Source: Candidatus Altimarinota bacterium | GTDB lineage: Bacteria; Patescibacteriota; Gracilibacteria; BD1-5; UBA6164 | Assembly (NCBI GenBank): GCA_020631575.1 | Contig: JAHDGX010000006.1 | Span: forward strand, 1 to 34,109 | Length of the DNA stretch: 34,109 bases | Direction: 5' to 3' | Shown: positions 9,222 to 28,615 of the stretch, in pieces | Layout of the letters: every line of letters begins with the position of its first letter | Position numbering within the stretch: the stretch's first letter is position 1 | Position numbers and translations under genes: made by a program | Notes under the pieces: generated by a model | Databases searched by the model: none | Seen by the model: the letters and a program-made list of their open reading frames with translations, nothing else | What the model was told of the DNA's origin: nothing

Positions 9222-9560
9222 TTAAATATCAAGTTGCTTAATAGTATCGTATATATGAGAGGCATTTTCTCAACTAGAGTCATAACGAAAACGTATCTTT
9301 GGAACTTTAATAAAAGCAATTTTTTTTCCAAGCATCCTGTGTATAGGATGTGCATGGTCGGAAAGAGATTTCGTTAGTTCATCATGATTGAGTAAACAGC
9401 TTACATGTATATCAATATATGAAGAGTCATTACTTATTTCAACTTTAGTCACGGTTATAATTCCGTGAGATACTGTAAGCTCTTGAAGCTCATTTATGAT
9501 AAACTCGCTAATGAGCTTTTGGCTTATAGACTCGGCTTTAGAGCGTCTTTCTTGTTTCAT
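9222..9560 (-). CDS. rbfA: ribosome-binding factor A
   Basis: 112 residues, the usual size. It begins MKQERRSKAESISQKL, has the KH-like core VTVTKVEISNDSSYIDIHVS, and ends with the family pattern IKVPKIRFRYDSS-G-ENASHIYDTI, where the glycine is TGA. RbfA binds the 30S precursor and helps mature 16S rRNA. It is divergent from rpsU, so two ribosome-related genes share one control region. Confidence 0.9.
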
Positions 9561-9614: not shown

Positions 9615-9645
9615 TTGTTTGACAAACAAAAAAAAAAGATATAAT
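9615..9645 (+). promoter_or_regulatory. rpsU promoter overlapping a palindrome
   Basis: TTGACA at 9619-9624 and TATAAT at 9640-9645, both perfect consensus with a short 15 bp spacer. The -35 box sits inside the perfect palindrome TTGTTTG-A-CAAACAA (9615-9629). On the minus strand the same palindrome gives TTGTCA, a candidate -35 box for rbfA. Confidence 0.8.
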
Positions 9646-9673
9646 CACTGCACTTTACACAATTACACCAAAT

Positions 9674-9681
9674 AAAGGAGG
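9674..9681 (+). promoter_or_regulatory. strong Shine-Dalgarno of rpsU
   Basis: AAAGGAGG, seven bases before the rpsU ATG. It is the only strong Shine-Dalgarno I found before any gene in the window; other starts follow plain A/T-rich sequence. Confidence 0.9.
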
Positions 9682-9688
9682 TAGAAAT

Positions 9689-9889
9689 ATGATATACGCA
9701 GTAAGAAAAGAAGGAGAATCAAATGAAAAACTCATCTTAAGATATAAGAAGATGTTTTTTCAATCTAGAATCGTTACAAAGCTAAAGAAAGAAAGATATG
9801 CAGTAAAAGACATGAAAAAAAGGAAACAAAGAGAAAAAGCAATTATAACGAATCACTACAGAGAACTAAATTCAAAGGTTTACTTCTAA
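9689..9889 (+). CDS. rpsU: 30S ribosomal protein bS21
   Basis: 66 residues. Starts IYAVRKEGESNEKLILRYKK and continues with the basic helices typical of bS21 (LKKERYAVKD, KKRKQREKA). bS21 sits on the 30S platform beside the 3' end of 16S rRNA, near the anti-Shine-Dalgarno. No TGA is used. The gene is monocistronic, with a consensus promoter, an exceptional Shine-Dalgarno and a strong terminator. That setting suggests high, specifically controlled expression and possibly autoregulation. Confidence 0.93.
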   Translation: MIYAVRKEGESNEKLILRYKKMFFQSRIVTKLKKERYAVKDMKKRKQREKAIITNHYRELNSKVYF

Positions 9890-9892
9890 GTA

Positions 9893-9936
9893 ACATACTA
9901 AAAAATCCCTACTCATGTAGGGATTTTTTAGTATGT
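9893..9936 (+). terminator. intrinsic terminator after rpsU
   Basis: A perfect 19 bp stem (9893-9911 with 9918-9936) and loop CTCATG. The GC core ATCCCTA/TAGGGAT is flanked by an A-run on the left and a T-run on the right, so it could act in both directions. It starts three bases after the rpsU stop. Confidence 0.93.
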
Positions 9937-10005: not shown

Positions 10006-11325
10006 ATGAAGCGAAGTTCTTGAGCATTTACATTTGTAGAACTCATTGTTGTGCTCGTAATCATAAGTATTCTTTCTACGGTCTGATTTACGGTATATGA
10101 ATCATATTTAAGTACAGGGAGAGACACTGCAAGAGTTACAAAGTTAAAAGATATTAATACAAGTCTTGGAGTGTATACTACAAAATCTCGAATTCCAGTT
10201 CCTGAAAATGGTATGGAAATTCTTTTGAGTGGATCACTTCTCATGTATCAAGGAGATTTTACAGAAAAAATAGCTAAAACAGTTTGATTTACAGGTATTC
10301 CGTTTGACGATAACTTAAACATCTATCCAACTTTAGCGCTTGAAAAAAATAAAAAAGACTTCCAGGTATTGACGTTTTTAGAGGAGCCTACACTACAACA
10401 GTCTTTTTTTGTACCTACATATGCATCTACAGATTATACATCACTTTACATCATCTCAATTTGAAAGTCATTATGAGTGTTGCTGGACGCTGATACAAAA
10501 CAACCACTTTATACTGACCCATTAATAAATACTTGAAATTATGAAATACTTACTTCAACTGGAGAGGTGCTTATGTACTTTTCTGATGAAAAACTTATAT
10601 ATAGTTCAAATGGGGACACTATTACCGAAATTATTCCAAATAAGAATTGTAGAAAGATCTTAGATTCATGAAAATCTCAATGAAGTTGAAAATATGCTAT
10701 TAATCCAACATGATCAAATGAGGTGATGGTATACTGTGATATGTTCACAGATGGGTGATGATGGACTATACTTGTAAATAATGATAACAAGGATGATGAA
10801 TCTGCAACTACGACTGATTGTAAGCCTAGACTTTCTTGATATAGTGATCATGCGTGTGGATCTATATCTGAGTCGAATGATTTCGTCGTGAATGCTGCTG
10901 GGATAAATTTTACAGAATTAGTATTTTCTTGATATTCATGAAAATTTGAAAATATGAATACGTATCAATATATGAAATGGGAGAGGGCCCAAGAGATACC
11001 CCCAAGTGAAACTTTTGAAACTGATCCAGCAGACTCTTGGGATAACGAACTTAAACTGAAGGGGTGAATTAATGACTTAAGATGTACGAGTTATGATCCT
11101 ATTTATCTTACTCTTCAGAATGGAGCTTGAGTATATGAACCTCACACTGCAATTCAGACTTCTTTATCATGAACAGAAAGAGAGTTCTCGTTCATTGATG
11201 ATTGACCTAGTTCATCAACAAAAAATACCTATGGCTTAGATGACTATCAAGATGGTGATGGTTGTTCGGATTGATGGGGAAATAAGACTTATCGTTGAAG
11301 TAGTGCTTACATTATGGTACGTTAA
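10006..11325 (+). CDS. prepilin with C-terminal fibrinogen-like domain, copy 1
   Basis: 439 residues. A type III signal (SSGA/FTFVELIVVLVIISIL) and pilin helix lead into a middle domain (about 40-225) with the motif NKKDFQVLTFLEE shared by all four copies. The C-terminal domain begins at NCRKILDSG and contains VYCDMFTDGGGWTI (residues 243-255; Gly251 and Gly252 are TGA), followed by Cys-containing loops, CSDGWGNK and the end SAYIMVR. C..IL..G then YCDM..DGGGWT is the opening of fibrinogen-related domains, which in animals bind sugars or acetyl groups. I infer a pilus or pseudopilus subunit displaying a binding domain. First of four tandem paralogues. Confidence 0.82.
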
Positions 11326-11345
11326 TTTACAATTCAAAAATAAAT

Positions 11346-12647
11346 ATGAATACATTAAAAAAATGATTTACTCTTGTAGAGCTTCTCATAGTTGTAGTTA
11401 TACTTTCTATACTTGCAACAGTATGATTTATTTCTTACGAGGATTATCTCATTGATACAAGAGATAGTAAGAGACTATCACAACTTACGTGATTGAGAGA
11501 TGGTCTCCGGTTGGCTACCACAAAATGAAGCCTCCCAAATCCAGATGATAATGTTGAAATTCGCAATAATGGGACAGCATTTTTATATCAGTGATATGCA
11601 GGAAAAAATGTTTTAGAATCAATTTCATATTCTGATACAATTAAGGATCCATCGGATGATATATACTATACGTATCTACTCTCTAGAAATAAAAGGGATT
11701 TTCAGGTGATGGGTTTTTTAGAAAAGTTTAATGGTGATGTTATCTCTCTTTCTGTAAATAATTCCTATGCATGAGAAGACTATTCTCAAAGATTTCCTAA
11801 TGTCTTTGGAAAAAAATTAGGTATAGTTTTAGAAAAACAAACTAATACTCCACTACAAGAAATGTCAGAGTATGCAGGAATTTGATATATGGATTTACAA
11901 GATCCTACTACCAATGAGTTTGACGCGTATATTACAGATACTTTTTTAATATCATGAAAAGAATCAGATCTTACATGAATAATACCATTTACTACATGTA
12001 AAAAGATACTTCAAACATGATGAAGTTTTGGTGATGGGATTTATAACATAAACCCAACCGGCCTAAACCCTTTTACAGTATATTGTGATATGACAATGGA
12101 TTGATGAGGTTGGACCTTGGTTTGAAGAAGTCATACAACAGGATCAGATTTTGATTTTTGATGGTTGAGTAGTAAAGGGTCTGTATATGATGACTCTTCG
12201 GAATATTCTTTATGAGATCAGGTAAGGGAATTATGATTTAGTGAAATTATGGCTACTACTTACACTACTGGAAAAAATATTAACCTTGCAGCAAAGGTGA
12301 GTGTTTCAGATCGAAATTATATAAATGATGAGATAAATTATGCATCTGTATCAGGAAACGGATGATGTGAAGAGGTATATCCATTAAATATTGCATGGAT
12401 TAGTCCGTGTGACCCTATGTGAACAGATGGGAAGAGTACAAACGATAATTCGCTCCTTAAATGGTGATATATTCAATTCATTAATACAACAGAAATTAAT
12501 GATACTCATTTCTTCTTTTATAAATCAGCATCTAATAGTATGAGGACAAGTAAGCTTTGATTAAGGTCGAATTGATACCTGGGCTCAAGCTGAGTTGCTG
12601 GATGGGGGGATATGGCTTATGAACAATGAATGATATTTGTAAGATAA
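11346..12647 (+). CDS. prepilin with C-terminal fibrinogen-like domain, copy 2
   Basis: 433 residues. The signal is KKG/FTLVELLIVVVILSILA, the cleanest of the four. The middle domain has RNKRDFQVMGFLEKF. The fibrinogen-like domain starts at TCKKILQTGG with VYCDMTMDGGGWTLVG (first two Gly of GGG are TGA at 12102-12107) and ends GMIFVR. It has the most complete fold-like features: FGWLSSKGSVYDD, CEEVYPLNIAWISPC and a late SNGYLGSSGVAGWGD segment. About two dozen in-frame TGA glycines. It starts 20 bp after copy 1, without a Shine-Dalgarno. Confidence 0.82.
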
Positions 12648-12652
12648 AATAT

Positions 12653-14068
12653 ATGAGAAAAAATATATCAGCTTTTACCTTTGTAGAGCTTATAGTGGTT
12701 ATCACTATATTAGCTATATTAGCTACTATTAGTTTTGGGACATACCAAAGCTATCTTTCATGAGCAAGGGACTCAAATAGACTTGTGCAGTTAGAGGATA
12801 TGCATGATTGACTCGAGCTTATTAGTGTGAGTCAAAGACTGCCTTTTCCAGAAGACCTTATAGAAATTCAAGCAAATACAGATACATTTGCCTATCAAGG
12901 TTATGCAGGGGAATCAGTGATTAATACTATTTGATATGATTGATGAGGGAAGGATCCTGAAAATGGGAACTATCTTACTTATATGCTAAGTGAGAATCAA
13001 AGAGATTTCCAACTTCTTACCTACTTAAGTGACATATCACTGACAAGTAATAATCAGGTGCATGCTTTTGATTATAGTGATGTGTTTCCTATAACAAGAG
13101 GAAAACCCTTGTGAATTCTGATACAAAAGGATACAAATGCTCCTTTACAAAGCGATACTGCTATTGCTCAAGTAGGAAGCTTTGATATTGTCACATGATC
13201 AGGTAATATTGTTGCGTACCTTACTGATACTAATAGAATAGATACTTCTAAGTGAGAAACTCTTACCTCAATGCATCCATCAAAGACATGTAAGAGAATA
13301 CTTGAGATATGAAGATCAAAGGGAAATGCTGTGTACACTATCTCCCCAGATGGAGTAACAAAATTGAGAGTATACTGTGATATGGAAACAGATGGAGGAT
13401 GATGGACTTTTGCAGGTTTTATAGATAGCACAACTGATACGTGAAACATACGACTTGCAACAGGAATATGACAATATAATAATTCCAGAAAGGATACAGA
13501 TACAGAGTATTTCTTACCAATGGAAAATTTATTACATACTGAAATGATGGTCTCTATCAATACTTCAGATGTTCTTCTTGCGGATTCTACTAATAGGCTC
13601 TTATTTCTTAGGTTTTGATTAGATTCAAATGCCTATCATAGTGATGATCTTTCAGATTGTTCGACATGACCAATGTGAACTTCAGCGAGGGGGCTAGGTT
13701 TACTCGATGGTGTGTATACGAGAGTATGAATATGAGAGAAAGAATATTTTACCTGATCTGCCTGATGTGCATCTTGATGGTATGTACGACCAAATTTATA
13801 TAGTCCAGATAGTCAATGAACTGCTAGCTCTCGACAACCATTTCTTGATGAATTACCGTATACTCAAGCGCAGTATGATTCATTTGCAGCTGCCTGAAAT
13901 TACCCTGTTGGGATGTATCTTTTGAATACTAAAGCAGTTGGCTCTACGTGAACTTTAGGAGCTAGATATTCTTCGGATGCTTGGGTGTGGATGAAGGGTG
14001 ATTGGACCTCTTCTACAGTAGCAGACCCACAGACTTTTTGAAATCAGGCATGGATTTATGTACGTTAA
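12653..14068 (+). CDS. prepilin with C-terminal fibrinogen-like domain, copy 3
   Basis: 471 residues, the longest copy. The signal is NISA/FTFVELIVVITILAIL, with Ala at -1. The middle domain carries SENQRDFQLLTYLSD. The fibrinogen-like domain runs from TCKRILEIG through VYCDMETDGGGWTFAGFID to the end GNQAWIYVR. A long insert with TGA-rich loops (about 355-420) distinguishes it. Five bases separate it from copy 2. At DNA level the GGGWTFAGFID block is nearly identical to that of copy 4, so these two are probably the most recent duplicates. Confidence 0.82.
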
Positions 14069-14077
14069 GATAATTTT

Positions 14078-15364
14078 ATGATAAAAAATATAAAAGCTTT
14101 TACTCTTGTTGAACTGATAGTTGTACTAACTATAGTAACAATACTCTCAACAGTATGATTTGTTGCATATACTGATTATCTTCGATGAGTACGCGATAGT
14201 AGTAGGATACAACAAATGACAGAAATGCATAAGTCATTTGTACTGTATGCAACGAGATCTAGGTTACCAATCCCATCATCATCGGTTTGAGTGGTTTATG
14301 GGAGTTCTCAGGTATGAACACAGTGATATGCAGACTCACAGGTGTTAGAAGTGATTAAGTATTCTGATGGATGATTTGACCCTAAAACAAAATCACCATA
14401 TACTTATTTTATGTCTCAAGATAGAAAATCAGCACAGCTTTTGTGATATTTTGAAGAGAGACAAGTTAATTCTCTACTAACTATGCAATCAGTCCAAGCA
14501 GAACAGATATATGATAGTTTATATCCACAAGTAGTATGAGCAGAGCTTGGTGTCTTACTAGAGCAAGAAACTCAACGACCTATCCATGAGCTCTTATCTC
14601 TACAGGGTATATCGACACTTGATATTGAATCTTATACTTGAGCCTTGATTTCTTATGCGTCAAACTCATCTACTCTCTCATGAACATGAACGAGTCTTGT
14701 TTCAGTTGTACCAAAATTGAACTGTAAGAAACTTCTCTCAGTCCTAGGAAGTGCAGAAAATGGTATATATAAGATCAATCCAACATGAATAAAGCAAATT
14801 GAAGTCTACTGTGACATGGAAGCTGATGGAGGATGATGGACGTTTGCAGGCTTTATAGATAATGATATGGTTTCAGATGACATATCCTTTGTTAACTCAG
14901 TATGAATCTATGATTCAAATAGGGCAGATGATAATATATGATATTTGCTTGATATGGATGAGTTAAAGCATACAGAAATTCTTTGGGTATATAATCCTGA
15001 CATATCAATTGCAAATAATTCAAATCAACTTATACAAGCTAAATACGATATTTGATTTCCATGACTGTATTCATGACCTGTTACTCCGTGCACCTCGTTT
15101 TTTGACTCTACTTGAAATCTCATGTACCGAACTAATGTGAATGATACCTACTCAGTGAGTACAAGAGAAGAATGTAATGCTACTACATGGTGATTTCGTC
15201 CATCAGATAATTCTTCTTTTATATTTCGTCTTAGAAATAGCTTAGACGGTGCATGAATAGGGAGTTGAGCTGCTTATGATTCACGTACATGGGGGATTAC
15301 AAATACCTCAGACCCAGATTATGATGTAAGTTGGTGACATGATGTATGGATTTATGTACGATAA
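14078..15364 (+). CDS. prepilin with C-terminal fibrinogen-like domain, copy 4
   Basis: 428 residues. The signal is NIKA/FTLVELIVVLTIVTIL. The middle domain has MSQDRKSAQLLGYFEE in place of the NKRDFQ motif. The fibrinogen-like domain begins NCKKLLSVLG, has VYCDMEADGGGWTFAGFID (third Gly TGA at 14834-14836), several Cys (PVTPCTSF, EECNATTW) and ends VWIYVR. It closes the four-gene array, which a strong hairpin terminates. All four copies keep the prepilin signal intact, so none looks like a decaying duplicate. Confidence 0.82.
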
Positions 15365-17870: not shown

Positions 17871-18425
17871 ATGTCTTCTTTTTTACAAGAGAAAATTGAT
17901 GGAGCATGATTTGAACTTCTTATTGATACAAAAATCTTTCCAAAAGATATCATTTTAAAAGCTGCATATAATCATCTAGATACTGGATACTTCTTCTTCA
18001 AATATGATGAGTGAGGCAATATTGCTTTAGAATTTACCCCTAAATCAGATATTAGTGTGGATCCTAGAACTCTCATTTGAGAGTTTTCCGATGAGTTACT
18101 TGATGTATATCTCAGGGATAAGCTTGAAAAAGACAATAAGATTATTAGAGAAACCATTGTTACAAAGGCTATTAATGGTCCTCTTGATATGCAAAACTTT
18201 GTGACGCTCGATACAGATACAAGCAGACAAAATGAAATCGATTTTGATAAAGATATTGATGACATACTCGCAGATATTGAAAATGATCCTGACTTACAAA
18301 TAGATGAGCAAGAAATAGAAAATATCCTAAAAGAGATTGAGGAGGATGCAACACTCAGTAAGCCAAAAGTTACTATAGATTTGGGAGCAGTATGAGGGAT
18401 AAAGGATATGTTTAAGAAAAAATAA
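17871..18425 (+). CDS. hxsD: His-Xaa-Ser system protein HxsD
   Basis: 184 residues. The first 110 match HxsD from memory: IDTKIFPKDIILKAAYNHLD, a beta segment, LIGEFSDELLDVYLRDKLEK and IIRETIVTKAI. HxsD is a small partner protein always found with the radical SAM enzymes HxsB and HxsC and the substrate HxsA; its biochemical role is unknown. Unusual here is a C-terminal acidic extension (about 125-165: DFDKDIDDILADIEND and repeats of Asp/Glu/Ile) ending in a basic KDMFKKK tail. It is the first gene of the locus and is followed, after one base, by a small relative. Confidence 0.75.
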
Positions 18426-18426
18426 T

Positions 18427-18612
18427 ATGGAGAAACAATTTAAGGTACAGAGTGATATATATGATATATCGTTAATTCAGGAAGCTATTTCTGATTTTTC
18501 AGATGTTGCTGATATATCATATAACAATGATGTTCTCAATATATCTTGAGAAACAAAGGAAGATATTGACGAGGTGTTCAATGAGTTTATGAATTATGTA
18601 CTTTCACTGTAA
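18427..18612 (+). CDS. small HxsD-like protein
   Basis: 61 residues, acidic. Pattern: alternating beta and helix, VADISYNNDVLNISGETKED followed by VFNEFMNYVLSL. The helix ending in a FxNYxL motif resembles the C-terminus of HxsD-type proteins, where a helix with the pattern F-x-x-E-L-x-x follows. The single TGA encodes the Gly of SGE. It lies between hxsD and hxsB, with one base upstream and six downstream, so it is almost certainly part of the system. Function unknown. Confidence 0.6.
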
Positions 18613-18618
18613 AAAAAT

Positions 18619-20070
18619 ATGACTTTAGATATACAAGCAATAGATAATAGAAAAACGGGGACGGTATGATTTTTTCGCTTCAAGAAATTTGATTCACAGA
18701 AATACTTAATTACAAGTGATGCATGAAAGTTTCACTTCCTGACTCATGATGATTTTAGACTTTTTTCAGTATGAGATGTGTCAGAACTAGCAAGTTATTC
18801 AGAACTTGTGAAAAAAGGATTTATACAAGATGAACATTATATTCATAAAATGTCTTGTAGTGTAGCATTGAAAAATCATTTTGTGTGAATGGGGCCTGCG
18901 CTTCATATGATAGTAATAACTCTTAGGTGTAATCATAAGTGTAGATATTGTCATGCTGCCGTGGCTCCTATGACAGCAAAAGAGTTTGATATGTCGAAAG
19001 AAACTGCTAAAAAAGTAGTTGATACCATCATGTACACAAATGCCCCAAGTTTTACTATAGAGTTTCAGTGATGAGAAGCTCTCGTGAACTATCCAGTTGT
19101 TCAATATGTGGTGGAGTATGCAAAAGATAGAGCGCAGCATCTCTCAAAACAGATCACTTTTTCTCTTGTTTCAAATCTTACTTTGATGACTGAGGATAAA
19201 CTGAAGTGGCTTCTGGATAACTGAGTAGATATATGTACGAGTCTTGATTGAGATGAAGTCTCGCATAATAACTCTCGAACATGATTTGATGGGAATAGTT
19301 TTGAGAAAGTGACGTATTGGATGAAGCGTGTGGATGAGGAGAAACAAAAACGTTGAATGTGAAAAGTATGAGCACTTCTGACAGCAACAAAGGAGACTCT
19401 TCCAAAGTATAAAAAAATAATTGACGTATATAGATCCCTTGGACTTGATGGGATATTTCTTAGATGGCTCAATCCGTATGGATTTGCTGCTGCTGACCTG
19501 CAAACTCTAGCCTATGAATCAGATGATTGGATTAGGTTTTATAAAGAGTCATTAGACTATATTATTGAGATTAATGCTTCAGGAGAATTTTTTAGAGAGC
19601 AAATTACTTCTGTGTATTTGCAAAAAATATTCAATGAATATGATCCTGCCTTTATGGATATACGAAATCCAAGTGGGATAGCAATAGGTTGAGTTGCGTA
19701 TAATTATGATGGAAAAGTATATGCAAGTGACGAATCAAGAATGCTTGGAAGAATGGGGATAGATGATTTTCTTATGACTGATATGCTCGACTCAGGAGAA
19801 GATACATATAAGGCAATGATGCAGAGTGATATTACAAAAATCGCGGTTCAGTCAAGTACTCTTGATGGCTTACCAGGGTATAATGATCATGTCTATAAGC
19901 CATACTTATGAGTAGATATTATTCATAACTTTAAAATGACAGGGAGTCTGTATGCTCCAATGGAAAAAGATGAAAAAATGAAGTTACAGATTGCTATACT
20001 TGATACCATTTTTGAAAAACTTCAAGATCCAAAAATCGAGAAGATATTTATGAGCTGGATAGGGAGATAA
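18619..20070 (+). CDS. hxsB: radical SAM maturase HxsB
   Basis: 483 residues. An N-terminal 90-residue substrate-binding-like region (FFRFKKFDSQKYLITSDAG) precedes the radical SAM core with CNHKCRYC (Cys104, 108, 111) and FQGGEALVNY (Gly151-Gly152 are consecutive TGA codons at 19069-19074). The C-terminal half keeps HxsB landmarks: IRNPSGIAIGG, YNYDGKVYASDESRML, LPGYNDHVYKPYLGVD. I recall these blocks carrying the SPASM cysteines in other HxsB proteins, but here the C-terminal 250 residues contain no cysteine at all. HxsB acts on HxsA-type His-Xaa-Ser repeat peptides; the exact chemistry is not settled. Confidence 0.85.
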
Positions 20071-20099
20071 GATTATGAGACCTTGTAAAGAGTTCTTGT

Positions 20100-20126
20100 T
20101 TGTAATTCAAGGAAAAGCATTATACT
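20100..20126 (+). promoter_or_regulatory. possible promoter of the precursor-peptide gene
   Basis: TTGTAA (20100-20105), 15 bp, TATACT (20121-20126) in the 90 bp gap between hxsB and the precursor gene, the largest gap in the locus. A separate promoter would let the substrate be made in excess of its enzymes, but the match is modest. Confidence 0.35.
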
Positions 20127-20160
20127 TAGCCTTATAAAGTACATTTAAAACTACTATATT

Positions 20161-20565
20161 ATGAAGAAAAAAGATAAATTTCCAAAACTTAAGAAATCAC
20201 TTAAGAATTTTCTTACAGATGAAAGTGGGAAAATCACAAAAAAAGATGCTTTATGATTATGAATAGGGGCTGCTATGATATGATCGATAGAACAAGTTTC
20301 TGCAGCACATTGTTCATCTTCAGGAGCTCATGGAAATAAAACTTATTCCTCTCCATGAGTATCACATGGAAATGATACTACATGGTGATCTAGAAATTTT
20401 AATATGACAGCCAATGGAATTCAATCATGTCAGCATGGAAGTGGTATTGTAAATGGGCATTACAGCTCCACTCCTTCTGGCCAATGAAATGCTAGATTTT
20501 CGTGACATGCAAATCATGGAAGTCATGGGAGTGGACACTGTAGTTGTTGAAGGGGGTGTTGGTAA
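20161..20565 (+). CDS. hxsA: HxsA-like precursor peptide, His-Xaa-Ser/Asn rich
   Basis: 134 residues in two parts. The leader (1-48) has a basic N-terminus, FLTDESGKITKKDALGLGIG and a hydrophobic stretch ending SIEQVSA, which resembles an export signal. The core (49-134) is rich in Gly, Ser, His, Asn and has five Cys. All nine histidines are in H-x-[S/N] motifs: HCS, HGN, HGN, HGS, HYS, HAN, HGS, HGS, HCS, ending SGHCSCGRGCW. This matches HxsA-family substrates, although classical HxsA has denser tandem repeats. Eight of its 22 glycines are TGA, so it is unrecognisable in the standard code. Likely modified by the radical SAM enzymes around it, then exported. Confidence 0.75.
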
Positions 20566-20582
20566 TTTTTAAAAAAAATATC

Positions 20583-21485
20583 ATGAAAAGCATACATTAT
20601 ATTATTGCAATGATTTTGTGTCTCATTATTGGTTTTTTAGGAGGATACTTTGTTTTTTACAAAAATAGTTTTGATAAGCAGAGCACACCTATCTTTATTC
20701 CTGAAGGGATAGGTGGTATTTCTAGTTCTATAGATAGTAACGTAGATGCAACTGTTATTCTCAATTCTCAATTACAATGAATTTTAGATGAGCAGAAAAA
20801 TACCGATTGAGAGCCTGAGTTAGGGCAAGCATTCTCTAATATAAAATATGCACTTAGAAACGATGCGATCAGTGATCAACATCTAAACTATTATGGAGTA
20901 TGAAACTCACTCTTGTTTTCAAGTATATCACAGCGAGATGAGTGTGATGTGTATCTCGAGAAGATCTCAACTCCTTCTCCTCAAAGATTTTATCAAGAGT
21001 GTATTTTTCAGTATTATCTGAAAAAATTACTAGAAAATAAGTGAAATTATGATGTTCCATCTGTAATTCTTGCGGAATATTCTATACTTAACAGTATATC
21101 AAACAAATCATGTAGTGTAGAGAATGACTTTCAATGTATGCTATTATTCAATAACGAAATGACTCGAGAAAAATTTCTCTCAGACATGCCTCAACTTATG
21201 ATTGATAAGTGATTTACGGTAAGTGATTTTCTCAGAAGTATCTCTCTTGTAAGTTATTGAATATATGTCTTTAATGATGATGTTCGAGATATTGATACGC
21301 TGGAAGAAGCTTTAAATTTATATTATGATGAAGCTCTTATTCAAAAAGCTGTCTATGAAAATCAATCCTCTTATTGTGATGAAATTAACTACGAACCAAG
21401 TCAAAAATATTGTAGAGATATTTTAAATAATGATACGCAAAAATACTTAGAACTTTTCAATAAATTTTATTCTCTCTCTGAATAA
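20583..21485 (+). CDS. single-pass membrane protein of unknown function in the Hxs locus
   Basis: 300 residues. One N-terminal membrane helix (about 4-27: IHYIIAMILCLIIGFLGGYFVFY) and a 270-residue, mostly acidic outer domain with eight Cys that could form disulfides (for example DECDVYLEK, CSVENDFQC and SSYCDEINYEPSQKYC). I do not recognise a family. Mostly helical composition without catalytic motifs. It sits between the precursor and the radical SAM series and could be an envelope partner of the secreted peptide; that is a guess from position only. ATG 20583 is preferred over a TTG at 20544 that overlaps the precursor gene. Confidence 0.6.
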
Positions 21486-21491
21486 GATTTG

Positions 21492-22646
21492 ATGAATACG
21501 GCATTTTACGTACATGTTCCATTTTGCCCATCTTGATGTAGGTTTTGTCATTTCTATATAAATGGGAAAAAACAAGAGTGATATGTAGAACTTCTTAAAA
21601 AAGAGTATAGTCTACGCTTTGGGGATACGGTTCAACAAGTATCATGCATACATATATGATGATGAACTCCAAATCTACTTTCAGAGCCTGAGCTGCAAGA
21701 ACTTCTCTCATTCTTACGCAAGACACTACTCTGATATAAAGAGTTTTCTATCGAACTCCATCCTGCTCTTTGTACTAAAAAGCAGCTAGATATACTCAAA
21801 GCATGATGAATAGATCGTATATCTTTTGGTATTCAATCCCTTGATTCATCGATTCTTGCGCACCATACAAGAGTATCAGGAAATTATGAGAAGCTTCACG
21901 AACTTGTCGCATATGCGAAAGAAATAGGAATTAAAAAGATAAATTTTGATTTCATATATGATCTCATAGGAGATAGCCTAAAAAATATTCAAAGGAATTT
22001 TGATTTTATAGAAACATGTAAACCTTCGAGCGTCTATTATTATAGGCTTAGGAGGTTTACAGAGCATCTAAAAAAGTATCATACATCAAATGAAAAACGT
22101 GCCTTTTGATACTATATGAAAGTGAAAAATAGCTTTCAGAAACTCTGATATACCCGTCTAAATAATGCGGTGTATTATGATCGCAGTCAACTATGATCCC
22201 AAGTCCCATTTTTATATGATGAAATTATATATGCTTCGAGACATAATCTTATAGGTATTTGAACTGCAGCTACATCGGAAATAGAAAACCATTTCACAAA
22301 AAATATATGCTCTTATGAAGAATATCAAAAATCATTATCTGAAAAAAACGTGCTTCTTCTTGATCAAGATTTCTCTATTGCTTCTAGTGCGCGTGTTTTA
22401 AATAGGCTCTATTTTTTCCTGCTTCAAAGATCTCAAGTAGAACTCTCGAGTTTTACCAGTATATTTTGAAATATGCTTGAACTCCAAGATGCTCTAAATA
22501 AGCTGCGAGATCATGATTTAGTTTCTGTCATAGACGAAGGGATATTTCGTCTTACTGAAAAGGGGCATTATTATTTTGATGAAAAGATATGAGATATACT
22601 ATTTAGTGATTATAGGGGGGAGTTTGAATTATTAAAAAAACTATAA
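21492..22646 (+). CDS. HemN/HemW-like radical SAM protein
   Basis: 384 residues. FYVHVPFCPSGCRFCHFY gives the cluster motif CxxxCxxC (Cys12, 16, 19) in HemN style. HIGGGTPNLLS has all three glycines as consecutive TGA (21657-21665). RISFGIQSLDSSIL, NFDFIYDLIGDSL and a C-terminal HemN_C-like domain (LNRLYFFLLQ) complete the pattern. The family includes coproporphyrinogen dehydrogenase, the heme chaperone HemW and methyltransferases. Its place inside a peptide-modification operon and its divergence make a role in this pathway more likely than heme synthesis. Six bases after the previous stop; the next gene starts immediately. Confidence 0.8.
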
Positions 22647-23246
22647 ATGAATTGTGATATTGTAGATTTTGATAGGTTTCTAAGCTCATGGATAGCAAAA
22701 AAGTATACTTCTACAAGTCTAGCTAAATATATTTTAGAAGAAAAAAAGCTATATCAGCGAATTACAACAGAGAAGGTAAGTCCAAATGGACCGGTACTTT
22801 CTAAAAATGATACCCACTTTTTAGATGTTATTGAGCCATGAGTTCGTGATATGGTGTTATATTTCATAGAATCTTTATGACTTATTACATATTGTTCTTG
22901 CCAGTGACACCAACACCTGTCATCACAAGAGAAGTGATATATTGATGAACGTTATATTAAGGTATTATTTCTTTCAAAAGATTCACGTGACACTATACAA
23001 AAAATCTTCCAACATATTATCGATACATATCCCTGAGATACTTCTATTATTCTTCCAAAAGTTTTAGCTTTTGATGAAAAATATAGTTGAAAACTTCTCT
23101 CTCAAGATAGTATTTATTGCCTTCAAATTAATTTTTCATCTGAAAAGAATAATGTGATTAAATATTTTGATGCAATAGAAAACGTGTATAATGAATTTCT
23201 AGATTACATGAAGATCTTTTTTGATACAAGGAAATGAAAAGAGTAA
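22647..23246 (+). CDS. unknown protein with a CxCxGH motif
   Basis: 199 residues, no membrane segment. I do not recognise a family. The most distinctive part is LITYCSCQGHQHLSSQEKGY (about 88-107), with two Cys and two His close together, a plausible metal site; RYIKVLFLSKDSRDTIQKIF follows. The C-terminus is a helix ending FFDTRK, a TGA glycine, then KE and TAA. Its start abuts the upstream stop (TAA-ATG). It overlaps the next gene by 13 bases, so it belongs to the same translationally coupled series. It may be a peptide-binding or accessory factor for the radical SAM enzymes. Confidence 0.6.
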
Positions 23247-24292
23247 ATCTATTTTTATGAATCAATGAATGGTGCAACCTAGATTGCAGTTATTGTAATG
23301 TTGTAAAATCACAAAAACAGCTCACTTTTGAAGACTGCAAGAAGGCATTTGTATATTACATCAAATTTTTCCCAGATGCTGAAGGGTATAATGTATTTTT
23401 TATGTGAGGAGAACCAATGTTGTCATACTCAGATATTCAAAAAAATATACTCTATCTTCGAGCACTCTGAGAAAGGATAGGAAAGCCAATTGATACCTTT
23501 ATGCCAACCAATGGAACCCTCCTATCAGAATCGCGATTAGATTTTTTTCGAAAATATAATCATCAAGTTTCTCTCAGTATCGACTCACTTGATCCAAGTT
23601 ACGATTATAGAAATATTCGTGATAGGGAAGATATCTCTTCGGTACCGGTACTGCTTAAGAATTTAAAACTATTTCAAAACTATAGTGATATACTCCGAGT
23701 AAAAATAGTAGTTATGCCAGATATGGTAGAGGGAGTCCTACATACATTTAATACTCTCAGAGAGTTATGATTCTCATTTATTAATATACAACCAGCGCAC
23801 TGAGTTTTATGGACTCAGGAAAGACAGAAAGCATACATAGGAGTATTACTTCAAACCAAGTTTATAGCTTCTGGAATTGAGAATCTGAAATCAACAACCT
23901 TAAAGTGATCTCATAGGAATGAAGATGATGGACCAAGGTTTATATGATGTGCTAAGTGAAGAAGTGAGATATTTATCGATTCTTATGGAGAAATATATGT
24001 ATGTGATGCTTTTCTCGCATACCCTTATGAGAAAAGGAAGAAATATGCACATGACAATTTGTTCAAGCCAAACTTTAATCAAAAAAAATTTGAAGAATAT
24101 CGTGACTGGAAATACTGTAATAATACGATTTTATGAGATGATAGTGATATTACTCACTGTGAAATCTGTGACGAAACAAAGTCTTGTTCTACTCTTTGTA
24201 ATGCGCTTCCAAATAATGATAGCGACTATGACAGAGATATACTAATGTCTAATTTTCACTTATATCGTAAACTTGATATGTTATGAATATAA
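23234..24292 (+). CDS. radical SAM protein with SPASM-like C-terminus
   Basis: 352 residues. The N-terminus NLFLGINEWCNLDCSYCN (Cys14, 18, 21) is a classic radical SAM site, then FFMGGEPMLSY (first Gly TGA), MPTNGTLLS and QVSLSIDSLDP. The C-terminal part has RFIGCAKGRSEIFIDSYGEI, VCDAF, and CEICDETKSCSTLCNA, enough cysteines for auxiliary iron-sulfur clusters as in SPASM peptide maturases. This is the best candidate in the locus for a full sactionine/AnSME-like modifying enzyme. The ATG lies within the 3' end of the previous gene and overlaps a TGA glycine codon there. Confidence 0.82.
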
Positions 24293-24996
24293 AGAAGAAA
24301 TATCAGATAATAGAAGGTATAGAAGAATTTTTTTTTAAGGAAGTAGAGGTCTTATTGATTCAAAAAGTTAAGGTATTACTAGAGAATACGATACACGATT
24401 ATGATGTGGAAGTGTGTATTTTTTATAGAGATGGATTACTTCACCCAAAATGTAAATTTCAAATTTTTACTGATAGTGAAGAATTACTCACTCAACTATT
24501 GCGACTTATAAGTATTGAAAATTATGATTTTCTACGATGAAAAAATCCCCTTAAATGAATCCAATTTGTTTTTAATAAAAATGGAAACATAATTGAATAT
24601 GCACTCAATCATGTTTCTTATACTAATGAAACAGTCATAGATATTTCCTATAAAACATTTATTTGAGAGCAGAGCTTAGTAAGAGAATACATACATAGAT
24701 TCCCAAAGAACTATATAAATGATATAGCTATCACAAGATTTCGAGATGTATTTTTGATTAAAGATATTATTCTTCTTCAAAAGAAATTTTTTGAGGAAAA
24801 AATCTCAAGCTGTTATTTATTTTTTGTCAGTAATTCTTATTTTCCTGATATATTTGAAAAAGAATTTGATATTGTGATCCCAGATTTCATAAAGTGATAT
24901 AATATGAAATGCTTTTGTATATGTATGAATAAAGCAGAACTGACGAGTAAAATACCAAGCAAATTTTCTCTCTACTTTTGAACCTATTGAATGTAA
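24283..24996 (+). CDS. unknown protein in the radical SAM operon
   Basis: 237 residues. No recognised domain. Helical N-terminus (EEFFFKEVEVLLIQKVKVLL), then mixed alpha/beta, with CFCICMN near the C-terminus. The gene overlaps both neighbours: ten bases with the upstream radical SAM gene, and its TAA shares an A with the next ATG (TAATG). The strict packing implies a stable stoichiometric role with its neighbours. It could be another peptide-recognition or scaffold subunit, but nothing in the sequence proves this. Confidence 0.55.
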
Positions 24997-25898
24997 TGCT
25001 GAACATATTTTCTACTAAAAAATGAGCAATCATAAAGATAGTCTATGGATGTAATCATAGATGCTATTTCTGTCATGAACGAGAAAATATATATTCGTAT
25101 AATTTTAAAAATATACATCTAAGTGACTTAGATACTATATATGAGTGGATCAGAGAAAATGAGTTTGATTATATAATTATTTCGTGAGGAGAGCCAACAC
25201 TTCATCCTGATCTAGTGAAGATTATCTTGTATTTTCAGGAAAGAGATATACACATAGTTATGGTAAATAATGGGAGCCGATTGCATACTCATGATTTTTC
25301 AAAAGTAGATCCAAATAAAATGACTTTTTATATATCATATCATGGCTTAGAAGAAGAGTATAATGATATTACTGAGAGCACAGACTTTCAGCAAGTCAGT
25401 GAGAATATAAGTCTTATTTCAAAACAGTTCCCAGAAGTGATTTTGAGGTATGTAGTAAATAAAAAAAATACTCAGACCTTCCATGAATATACTCGTTATG
25501 TTTTTGAAAATTTCCCAGATGTATATTTAGAATATGTACTGGTTGAAGATTTGAGATATTCACATGTACAAGAGACGTATATTCCACTTACAGAGTTTTA
25601 CAAGCTAGTGTTTCAATATATAAAACATGATAAAGTACTTCTAGATGGTTGAGCAGCTTGCTTCTCTCCATACCTTTTTCAGCATGCACGTAATAAATTT
25701 GATCCTCTTGTAAATACGATGCTTGGACTAGTTAAAAAGACAAAACAGGGAGAGCTAGTATATAACATAAAGCAGATACTTTCTGATGAGAATATAAAAA
25801 GTCATTGGAAAAAATGTAAGAGCTGTGTACAGTATGATTATTGCCATGGATTTGATACAGATTATATAAATAAACACTCATGAAACGACTCGGTTTAG
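24996..25898 (+). CDS. radical SAM protein with C-terminal Cys cluster
   Basis: 300 residues. Core motif VYGCNHRCYFCHE (Cys19, 23, 26), then IIISGGEPTLHPDLV (the first Gly of GGE is TGA) and VMVNNGSRL. The C-terminal region has GGAACFSPYLF and, further on, WKKCKSCVQYDYCHGFD, a C-x2-C-x5-C arrangement suited to an auxiliary cluster (twitch/SPASM-like). The closest kind appears to be small peptide-modifying radical SAM enzymes; the substrate is presumably the locus precursor. After HS a TGA glycine and NDSV precede TAG. The next gene starts inside this tail. Confidence 0.78.
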
Positions 25899-26683
25899 AT
25901 ATAGAACTCACTAACATATGTAATGCTACATGTGCTATTTGTGATAGAAAATCTATGGAACTTCAGGGACTCTGAACTATGACAGATGAGGTATATGATG
26001 CTATACTTAAAAAATGAGTCCCATATCTTAAAATTATGAGTTTTTGATGAATTTGAGATCCTTTTCTAGATAAAAATTTTTGGTCACGAATTTCTCTGCT
26101 TCTTCAAGAAGTAGAGAAACAATGAAGAAAGTATGATCTCCATATCTTTGTGTATTCTAAAATGCAAAATATGTCCGAAACAGACTTTTTGCAAATAAAA
26201 GAAATCCAAGATTTAGGATATAATTTTACTTTTTATTTATCAATTTTTACCTTTCGTAGGAAATACTATAGCATGCTAACAGGGTTATCGTATGATCAAT
26301 TTCAAAAGAATTTTGACCTCTTGAGAAAATCATGAGTCAATTATAAGATTAACTTTACTCTTACAAAGTATGGAGTAGATGAACTTCCATATCTTATAAA
26401 AAACTTTTCGAACTATCAAATAGAGACTATTCATGATTTTAGATGAGAGATAGATACCGATGCATATCTTTTTGAGAATATGAAAGATATAGATTTTTCA
26501 GCTCGTCAGAGCAATGTTCCTAATGATTTGTTAGTATCTTCTTTTTCTATTACACATACTGGAGAGTTTCGGTATACTGATGAGGACAGTAGAAGAGATG
26601 TAAAGATATGAAACATTACAGAGATAGATTTCAAACAAGCAGCAGATATATATGCTAACCTTGCCTCAAAATGAGCAGCATAA
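25880..26683 (+). CDS. radical SAM protein, short form
   Basis: 267 residues. LDIELTNICNATCAICDR (Cys14, 18, 21) opens the protein and FGGIGDPFLDKNF takes the place of the GGE motif, as in several radical SAM subfamilies with GG-x-G-[ED]-P. The protein ends soon after the barrel with a segment (TGEFRYTDEDSRRDVKIGNI) resembling the strand before a SPASM domain, but without its cysteines, so it probably has only the SAM cluster. Overlaps the gene before by 19 bases and the gene after by 13. Its stop follows a TGA glycine by two codons. Confidence 0.75.
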
Positions 26684-27645
26684 TAGATATACAAACCTTA
26701 GAATTTGATGTTTCAAATAAATGCGGGAATACCTGCCAGGGATGTTATCATAATAAAATTATAACAGAAAATACTACCTCTCCAGAACATTTCAGCACAT
26801 ATATATCAAAGTTTTTTGAAATAAATCAGAGAGAAAAACTCGATAGTTTCGCTCTATACTGATGAAACATACTTGAAAATAATAATCTCATAGAATACTT
26901 ACGGGTACTTCAAGATTATAATCATAGTATCTCAGAGTATTTGTTCTCGACAACGTTTTGAGAGTATACACTGGCTGCAAAAGCAAATCAAAAATATCTC
27001 TTGGGAGAATTCTTTTCATGAAAGAAGTTTATTTTTCAGTACTTTTTTCATCCTGATTATGTTGAATCGTACATAGAATCTTGCAGGGATCTCATATCTC
27101 ATCAATATCAGACTCATATATTTTTTTCTGTGCAGCTTGTTGAAGTTGAGAAGCAGTATATAGTACACTTGTGTAAGTCTCTGAGGAAATTCTTTGTGAG
27201 TATTGGATGTAAGAGAAAAGAAGATTTAGAATCTATAGAACGCTGCGTTGTATCTGCCATACGTGACAGGACAAGAACAGAAAATTTAGAAATTTCTATA
27301 GGAAGTTATACGTTCCTCATTATGGTGCTTCACCCTGTCAAAAAAGAGCAGTGACGTATCAGCTCTGTATGTGGAGATTCATGCTCTTTTTATAGCTCAT
27401 CGTCTATCCTATCAAATAATATGTTTACTTCGAGCATGCTGTCTATTGAGTATGATGGAGCAATAAATTTTCACAATCCTAATTGTATTGCGAGCTTACA
27501 AAAAATATGTAATATTATGGAAGATGATGATCAGATTTCAGAGAAACTTCATAAGTTTTACTGATTTCTAGGTCAAAATGTGAGAGATAATCCCAAACTC
27601 ATAGATGCATGTAATGGCTGTTTGAAACATAATCTAAAAAAATAA
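26671..27645 (+). CDS. divergent radical SAM-like protein
   Basis: 324 residues. The cluster motif is intact: FDVSNKCGNTCQGCYH (Cys18, 22, 25). However, the usual GGE is GGN (ALYGGNILEN, both Gly TGA), and later barrel motifs are hard to trace. The C-terminal half is Cys-rich (SSVCGDSCSFYSS, NPNCIASLQKICN, ACNGC), suggesting further metal binding. It may be an active but unusual enzyme, or a non-catalytic subunit. The intact CxxxCxxC argues against simple decay. It starts inside the previous gene at ATGAGC. Confidence 0.7.
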
Positions 27646-27649
27646 TATA

Positions 27650-28615
27650 ATGCAAAAAACAGCGTACTTACAACTTCATAGAATCTGTGATCAAGATTGT
27701 ATTTTTTGTGCGCAGCCTACTAATGGAAAATATCTGAATTTTTCTGAGATTAGTGATCAAATTGATTATTATATTTTACAGTGATATACGGGGATAATAT
27801 TTTCTGGGTGAGAACCTACTATGAGTCCGTATTTTTTTGATACTATTTCATATTGTAGAGAAAAAAATATTTCTATGCGAATACTTACAAACGGCCATAT
27901 GCTCGCAGATGCAGATTTTGCTCGCAGGTCTATTGACGCGTGACTGAGCTCTTATCATATTTCTCTTCACTCTCATGTCGAGACTATACATGACGCAATG
28001 GTAAAAAAGTCATGAAGTTATCGCAGAAGTCTTGAAGCCATGACAAATATCCTTCGTCTAGGATGAGACTTAACAATTAATATAACAATTAACAGTTACA
28101 ATGTAACATACTTTCCTAAAATGATCTCTTTCTTTCTTAAAAACTTTCCAAAGATAGACGGATTTATAGTAAATAATCTAGAAACATCGCAAATAACAAG
28201 CACTTACTTTTGAGTTATTGCAGATTTACAGGATATCAAGAAGATAATTATACCAACACTTGATTTAATTGTTGCATCATGAAAGGAGGTTCGTGTTGAA
28301 CGAGTGCCGATGTGTTATATGAGATGATACGAACACTTAAGCGTTGACGTAGAGTATACCATTTTAGGAGACGAGAAATACCTACACTATCTCGATGATA
28401 CGACAACTTCAGGAGTCTTAGATAGTTCTACTCATAGCGCTGATTACACGTATTGATCAGCATGTAAAGCATGTGATCTAAAAAAAATCTGTTCAGGTAT
28501 TGTTTGAATTTGAACTCACTATAAGGAAAGTGATTTATATACTCAAAAAGTTAGCAAAGATGAGCTAGACTCCATCATATTTCTATCAAAGAAATATCTT
28601 CACAGATCTTACTAG
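27650..28615 (+). CDS. radical SAM protein, possible HxsC counterpart
   Basis: 321 residues. LQLHRICDQDCIFCAQPTNG (Cys13, 17, 20) followed by IIFSGGEPTMSPYF (second Gly TGA) and ILTNGHMLADADFARR, then SLHSHVETIHDAMVKKSG and ITINSYNVTYFPKM. The CxFCxQP opening, the TNGhxxAD segment and the HD-containing loop are features I associate with HxsC, the second radical SAM enzyme of His-Xaa-Ser systems. A C-terminal SACKACDLKKICSG may hold an auxiliary cluster. It ends the plus-strand series with TAG; its last 33 bases overlap the prepilin peptidase gene on the other strand. Confidence 0.75.

Follow-up and report, generated by a model that had tools for sequence, protein, structure and literature searches.

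Why should a single gene be preceded by a strong Shine-Dalgarno (SD) sequence in a genome whose other genes start behind A/T-rich leaders? The question is raised by rpsU in the window, that is, the whole stretch of 34,109 nucleotides analysed here, which is contig C38 of a draft genome (1.06 Mb, 87 contigs). A first-pass annotation had noticed this SD and had proposed that the logic of Flavobacterium, where bS21 helps to hide the anti-SD of 16S rRNA, may have evolved in this lineage too. Autoregulation of bS21 (rpsU) through ribosomes that lack bS21 is proven in Flavobacterium johnsoniae and is described for other Bacteroidota as well (Jha et al. 2021; McNutt et al. 2023, PMC9976891).

The rpsU locus and its surroundings

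The window belongs to a genome of the code-25 Gracilibacteria; its reading frames stay open only with TGA read as glycine, as an ORF check showed. The product of rpsU scores below the curated cut-offs when searched singly (17.2 of 27 bits for Pfam, 16.4 of 28.95 for NCBIfam), so that the gene name needed further support. A profile built from 17 orthologues matched only bS21 chains in the PDB, 7jil among them, with a best E-value of 6.7e-9, and judged by these matches the product is bS21. The Pfam model PF01165 found the gene in 0 of 60 relatives, the family being too diverged for it, and a protein search was therefore used instead, which recovered orthologues in 81 of 99 relatives.

With a terminator-like hairpin right after it, rpsU appears to be monocistronic, and the position of the promoter-like TTGACA/TATAAT pair would give it a 5′ UTR of roughly 35–40 nt (Table 1). 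The combination TATAAT-N(2-6)-GCACTTTA has its sole occurrence in this genome at rpsU; elements resembling GCACTTTA also stand just upstream of rpsU at four further loci (L032, L045, L073 and L189).

Two other regions of the window deserve mention in their own right. Four tandem genes at 10006-15364 (+) fuse the N-terminus of a type IV pilin (N_methyl) to part of a fibrinogen C-terminal domain and possibly encode adhesive pilins. A peptide-modification cluster of the Hxs (His-Xaa-Ser) type extends over 17871-28615 (+), in which the precursor-like gene precedes several more genes for radical SAM proteins, including two related to HxsC; such a cluster is surprising for a reduced CPR genome.

Table 1. 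Features of the window, with position, strand and basis of assignment (a single number is the position given for that feature)
Feature	Position	Strand	Basis or remark
rbfA, 30S maturation factor, divergent neighbour of rpsU	9222..9560	-	Pfam RBFA 3.9e-18
Promoter-like TTGACA - 15 nt - TATAAT	9619..9645	+	consensus match only, read from sequence
TGCACTTTA, GCACTTTA-like element 5′ of rpsU	9649..9657	+	recurs in both related families
Extended Shine-Dalgarno AAGGAGGTAG	9675..9684	+	complementary to 16S tail CUAUCUCCUU
rpsU, ribosomal protein bS21, 66 aa	9689..9889	+	ORF; orthologues; PDB profile matches
Terminator-like hairpin AAAAAATCCCTAC-TCAT-GTAGGGATTTTTT	9900..9929	+	directly 3′ of rpsU, read from sequence
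HxsD	17871	+	His-Xaa-Ser cluster
HxsD-like	18427	+	His-Xaa-Ser cluster
HxsB radical SAM maturase	18619	+	459 bits
HxsA3-like His/Gly/Ser-rich precursor, weak	20161	+	His-Xaa-Ser cluster

A single strong Shine-Dalgarno among SD-less starts

The motif AAAGGAGG lies at 9674-9681 (+), 7 nt 5′ of the ATG at 9689, where the first-pass annotation had placed it, but the pairing block in fact extends further. The extended SD forms 10 bp with the 16S tail, nine Watson-Crick pairs and one G-U, and ends 4 nt before the ATG, with its AGGAGG core 7 nt before; its TAG, left uncounted in that first reading, pairs with the lineage-specific CUA of the tail. By itself, AGGAGG is not uncommon across the window, where 8 occurrences were seen against 6.4 expected. 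Among the 35 window starts under code 25, rpsU reaches −14.6 kcal/mol, the next start −3.9 and the median −0.7, so that the lone strong SD of the window is indeed that of rpsU.

The genome-wide survey covered 1.05 of 1.06 Mb and 962 starts under code 25, which came from a simple home-made gene finder with imperfect start choice, the rpsU start being set by hand. At −14.6 kcal/mol rpsU again ranked first, followed at −10.9 by a gene with a gapped match, and its contiguous pairing run of 10 compares with 8 in the next three genes. Many equally strong SDs elsewhere would have spoken against the proposal of the first-pass annotation, and this ranking favours it; moreover, no SD at all was found in 25 leaders of ribosomal-protein operons (those of secY and of 24 ribosomal proteins), the lowest of which lies at −4.9. 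The word AAAGGAGG is under-represented in the genome (28 occurrences, 61 for the reversed word), and besides rpsU a single plausible ORF starts just behind it, encoding a 168-aa membrane protein on contig C39 at ~4702 (−), with −8.7 kcal/mol. The local G+C of this ORF is 0.43 versus 0.33 genome-wide, and the gene was probably acquired with the SD of its donor kept. In the complete genome CP042461 (G024), of which ~30% with 334 starts was covered, rpsU was likewise first, at −16.4 kcal/mol, while a few other genes in that portion reach −10 to −12.7.

The leaders as a class show no preference for SD pairing, their mean being −1.87 and that of shuffled leaders −2.02; the positive control, annotated starts of E. 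coli K-12, gave −6.8, compared to −5.4 after shuffling and −4.0 in an upstream mock window. SD-like pairing at −4.5 or stronger was counted 93 times at starts and 211 times in the mock window, a comparison in which the leaders are also more A/T-rich. Over positions −20 to −1, G makes up only 5–12% with no SD peak, and positions −11 and −3 are enriched in A. A search of 48 genomes of the family for AAGGRGRTAG-ATG returned 67 matches, 24 of them rpsU, and 56 for the reversed control; matches outside rpsU are thus at background, indicating that this is not a general signal. Together, these observations support the view that genes of this lineage are generally SD-less.

Could the resemblance of the rpsU leader to an SD have arisen simply by chance, given how A/T-rich the genome is? 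An exponential fit predicts 0.25 genes at −14.6 kcal/mol in one genome, and runs of at least 10 are expected ~0.1 times among 962 shuffled leaders of one genome. The energy of rpsU alone is therefore not extreme within a single genome, and it is conservation that carries the argument.

Conservation and co-change of leader and 16S tail

A match of 9–11 bp is present in the rpsU leader of 34 of 39 same-family genomes and 16 of 19 genera, at −12.9 to −16.5 kcal/mol and ending 4–7 nt before the ATG. The recurrence of an SD at the same gene throughout these 16 genera already refutes a chance origin, the probability of which we consider practically nil.

The 16S of this genome is absent from its assembly, as searched with a generic 16S stretch joined to the observed lineage tail, and the tail was assigned to it from the 16S of genus-mates. 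In these (G002, G004, G006), as in all other same-family genomes with a 16S, the rRNA ends in GGACTATCTCCTTA. The tail of the lineage is changed, reading ...GGACUAUCUCCUUA in place of ...GGAUCACCUCCUUA; in E. coli numbering the changes are U1532C, C1533U and C1535U, which convert the anti-SD core CCUCC to UCUCC and alter two positions upstream of it. A canonical anti-SD had been our initial assumption and was ruled out by these 16S ends. The 16S 3′ end, whose degeneration would have spoken against the first-pass annotation, has thus not stayed canonical, but the outcome is still in its favour, since rpsU compensates: its SD AAGGAGGTAG matches the altered positions, and departures of the leaders from the perfect complement of the tail, TAAGGAGATAG, are in 29 of 35 cases A>G opposite U, by which the pairs are kept. 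Elsewhere in the class the 16S ends in GGATCACCTCCTT in some families, and tails are canonical or differently changed; some rpsU leaders there carry canonical-type SDs, such as AAAGGAGGTGAT.

The exceptions within and around the family bear on the same relationship. Two genera of the family, represented by G009 and G020, lack the rpsU SD, and that of genus g9 carries a single mismatch (G>A at position 4), which predicts a compensating change in the 16S tail of the genus; a search for the 16S of g9, G009 and G020 found none. The g9 leaders (G015, G031 and G062; loci L251, L041 and L042) read AAGAAGATAG or AAGAGGATAG. In related families, six genomes with the tail CUAUCUCCUU have a recognisable rpsU SD (G038, G040, G041, G043, G045, G047), and the SD is absent in six with the decayed tails CUAUCUCUUU or CUACCUCUUU (CUCUUU; G036, G037, G046, G052, G055, G056). 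The genomes with decayed tails fall into a single group on the 16S tree (support 81/54), leaving only one independent pair, so that we count the joint loss of tail and SD as one event and claim no significance for it. Another altered tail occurs in genus g33, as CUAUCUCCAUU in G072, and G058 of the same genus is also without the rpsU SD.

It has to be considered whether the purine block could be a site for a protein, or for RNA or DNA other than the 16S tail, its SD likeness being incidental. The block is long and conserved, and it adjoins another recurring element, GCACTTTA, which speaks for such a site. However, its variation consists almost wholly of the pair-preserving A>G changes, its spacing to the ATG is 4–7 nt, it matches those 16S positions that are specific to the lineage, and it is missing where the tail has decayed, rendering this explanation quite improbable. 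Because the strong SD stands alone, is conserved and matches the changed tail, SD pairing at rpsU that is sole, extended and co-adapted appears well supported by the comparison of leaders and tails.

A putative bS21 feedback and its relation to known systems

The best explanation, with a probability of roughly 60% in our estimate, would be autoregulation by bS21 as in F. johnsoniae. Translation in Gracilibacteria would generally begin on leaders rich in A/T and poor in G, with no SD pairing, the exception being the rpsU mRNA, which would bind the 16S 3′ tail, 5′-CUAUCUCCUU-3′, through its extended SD of 9–11 bp. We infer that bS21, when seated on the 30S platform, would make the tail unavailable to mRNA, that 30S subunits without bS21 would have a free tail and initiate preferentially on rpsU, and that newly made bS21 would close the loop. 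Alternatively, the pairing may be real without being regulatory, an ancestral strong SD being kept for high rpsU translation with no bS21 feedback. The feature may well be inherited, since AAAGGAGG-type SDs also precede rpsU in several further families of the class whose tails are of the canonical type, and a monocistronic gene with a short leader would be compatible with this account. Yet the other ribosomal-protein genes that were checked need high output too and none keeps an SD, whereas the feedback model predicts an SD far beyond the needs of efficiency on the one protein that adjoins the tail; we therefore regard the non-regulatory account as rather unlikely. Building on bS21 feedback, we suggest tentatively, and with somewhat less than even confidence, that selection may maintain the anti-SD for the sake of essentially a single mRNA, that of rpsU, as a means of sensing ribosomes without bS21, that the feedback may have arisen or persisted independently of Bacteroidota via a different platform contact, and that the anti-SD may decay where the rpsU SD is lost.

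If true, self-regulation by bS21-poor ribosomes would be a recurrent solution rather than a quirk of Bacteroidota, reached here through another anti-SD and another surface of the protein. It would account for a pairing-competent 16S tail in a lineage that abandoned SD-led initiation, and would make the 'lost anti-SD' of candidate phyla a single-gene system open to testing. What makes the case interesting is its apparent independence in a distant phylum, together with the idea that a single mRNA keeps an anti-SD alive; among open-licence papers we found no earlier report linking rpsU to SD scarcity or anti-SD loss in Patescibacteria or candidate phyla.

That candidate phyla are SD-scarce and in places lack CCUCC is already known (PMC10783764). 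Class iv of that study comprises SD-scarce organisms without CCUCC, including Absconditabacteria and other candidate phyla, which the survey treats as anti-SD losses. Our lineage resembles this class in its scarcity of SDs, its changed anti-SD and its relation to candidate phyla, but differs in that a single gene has kept its fit to the changed tail. In this it is like the Chryseobacterium type, cited in PMC9976891 and PMC8710568, which has an alternative anti-SD, UCUCA, with a compensating rpsU SD; here, too, an altered core is matched 5′ of rpsU, although in another lineage and by other substitutions (1532, 1533 and 1535, E. coli numbering).

The closest counterpart is the system of Bacteroidota. 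There, in F. johnsoniae, the 16S tail is held by bS21, bS18 and bS6, an SD is missing from most genes, and ribosomes without bS21 preferentially translate rpsU, the only gene with an exceptional SD (9–13 bp across Bacteroidia); in Flavobacteriales, this sole-SD pattern goes with a threshold of about −13 kcal/mol (PMC9976891). Shared with our lineage are the SD-poor genome with rpsU as its only gene with an exceptional SD, a pairing beyond about −13 kcal/mol (−14.6 here, −16.4 in G024) and a 16S tail change matched in rpsU. Of the sequence-level features compared, all were found except Y54 of bS21: this residue of the Bacteroidia tail-binding pocket aligns with I/V53 here, with a conserved Y57 nearby; this counts against the reading, although bS21 of Chlorobia also lacks Y54 (PMC9976891). 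The proposal of the first-pass annotation is supported in part, namely for the generally SD-less genes, the lone SD conserved across genera and its co-change with the tail, whereas hiding of the tail by bS21 and a preference of bS21-poor ribosomes for rpsU mRNA are its putative parts. The present lineage further differs in belonging to the Patescibacteria, a distant phylum, in its tail, CUAUCUCC and not UCACCUCC, and in that tail sequestration and feedback are putative here. On these features, the rpsU SD described here resembles the bS21 self-regulation proven in Flavobacterium and seems to have been arrived at independently.
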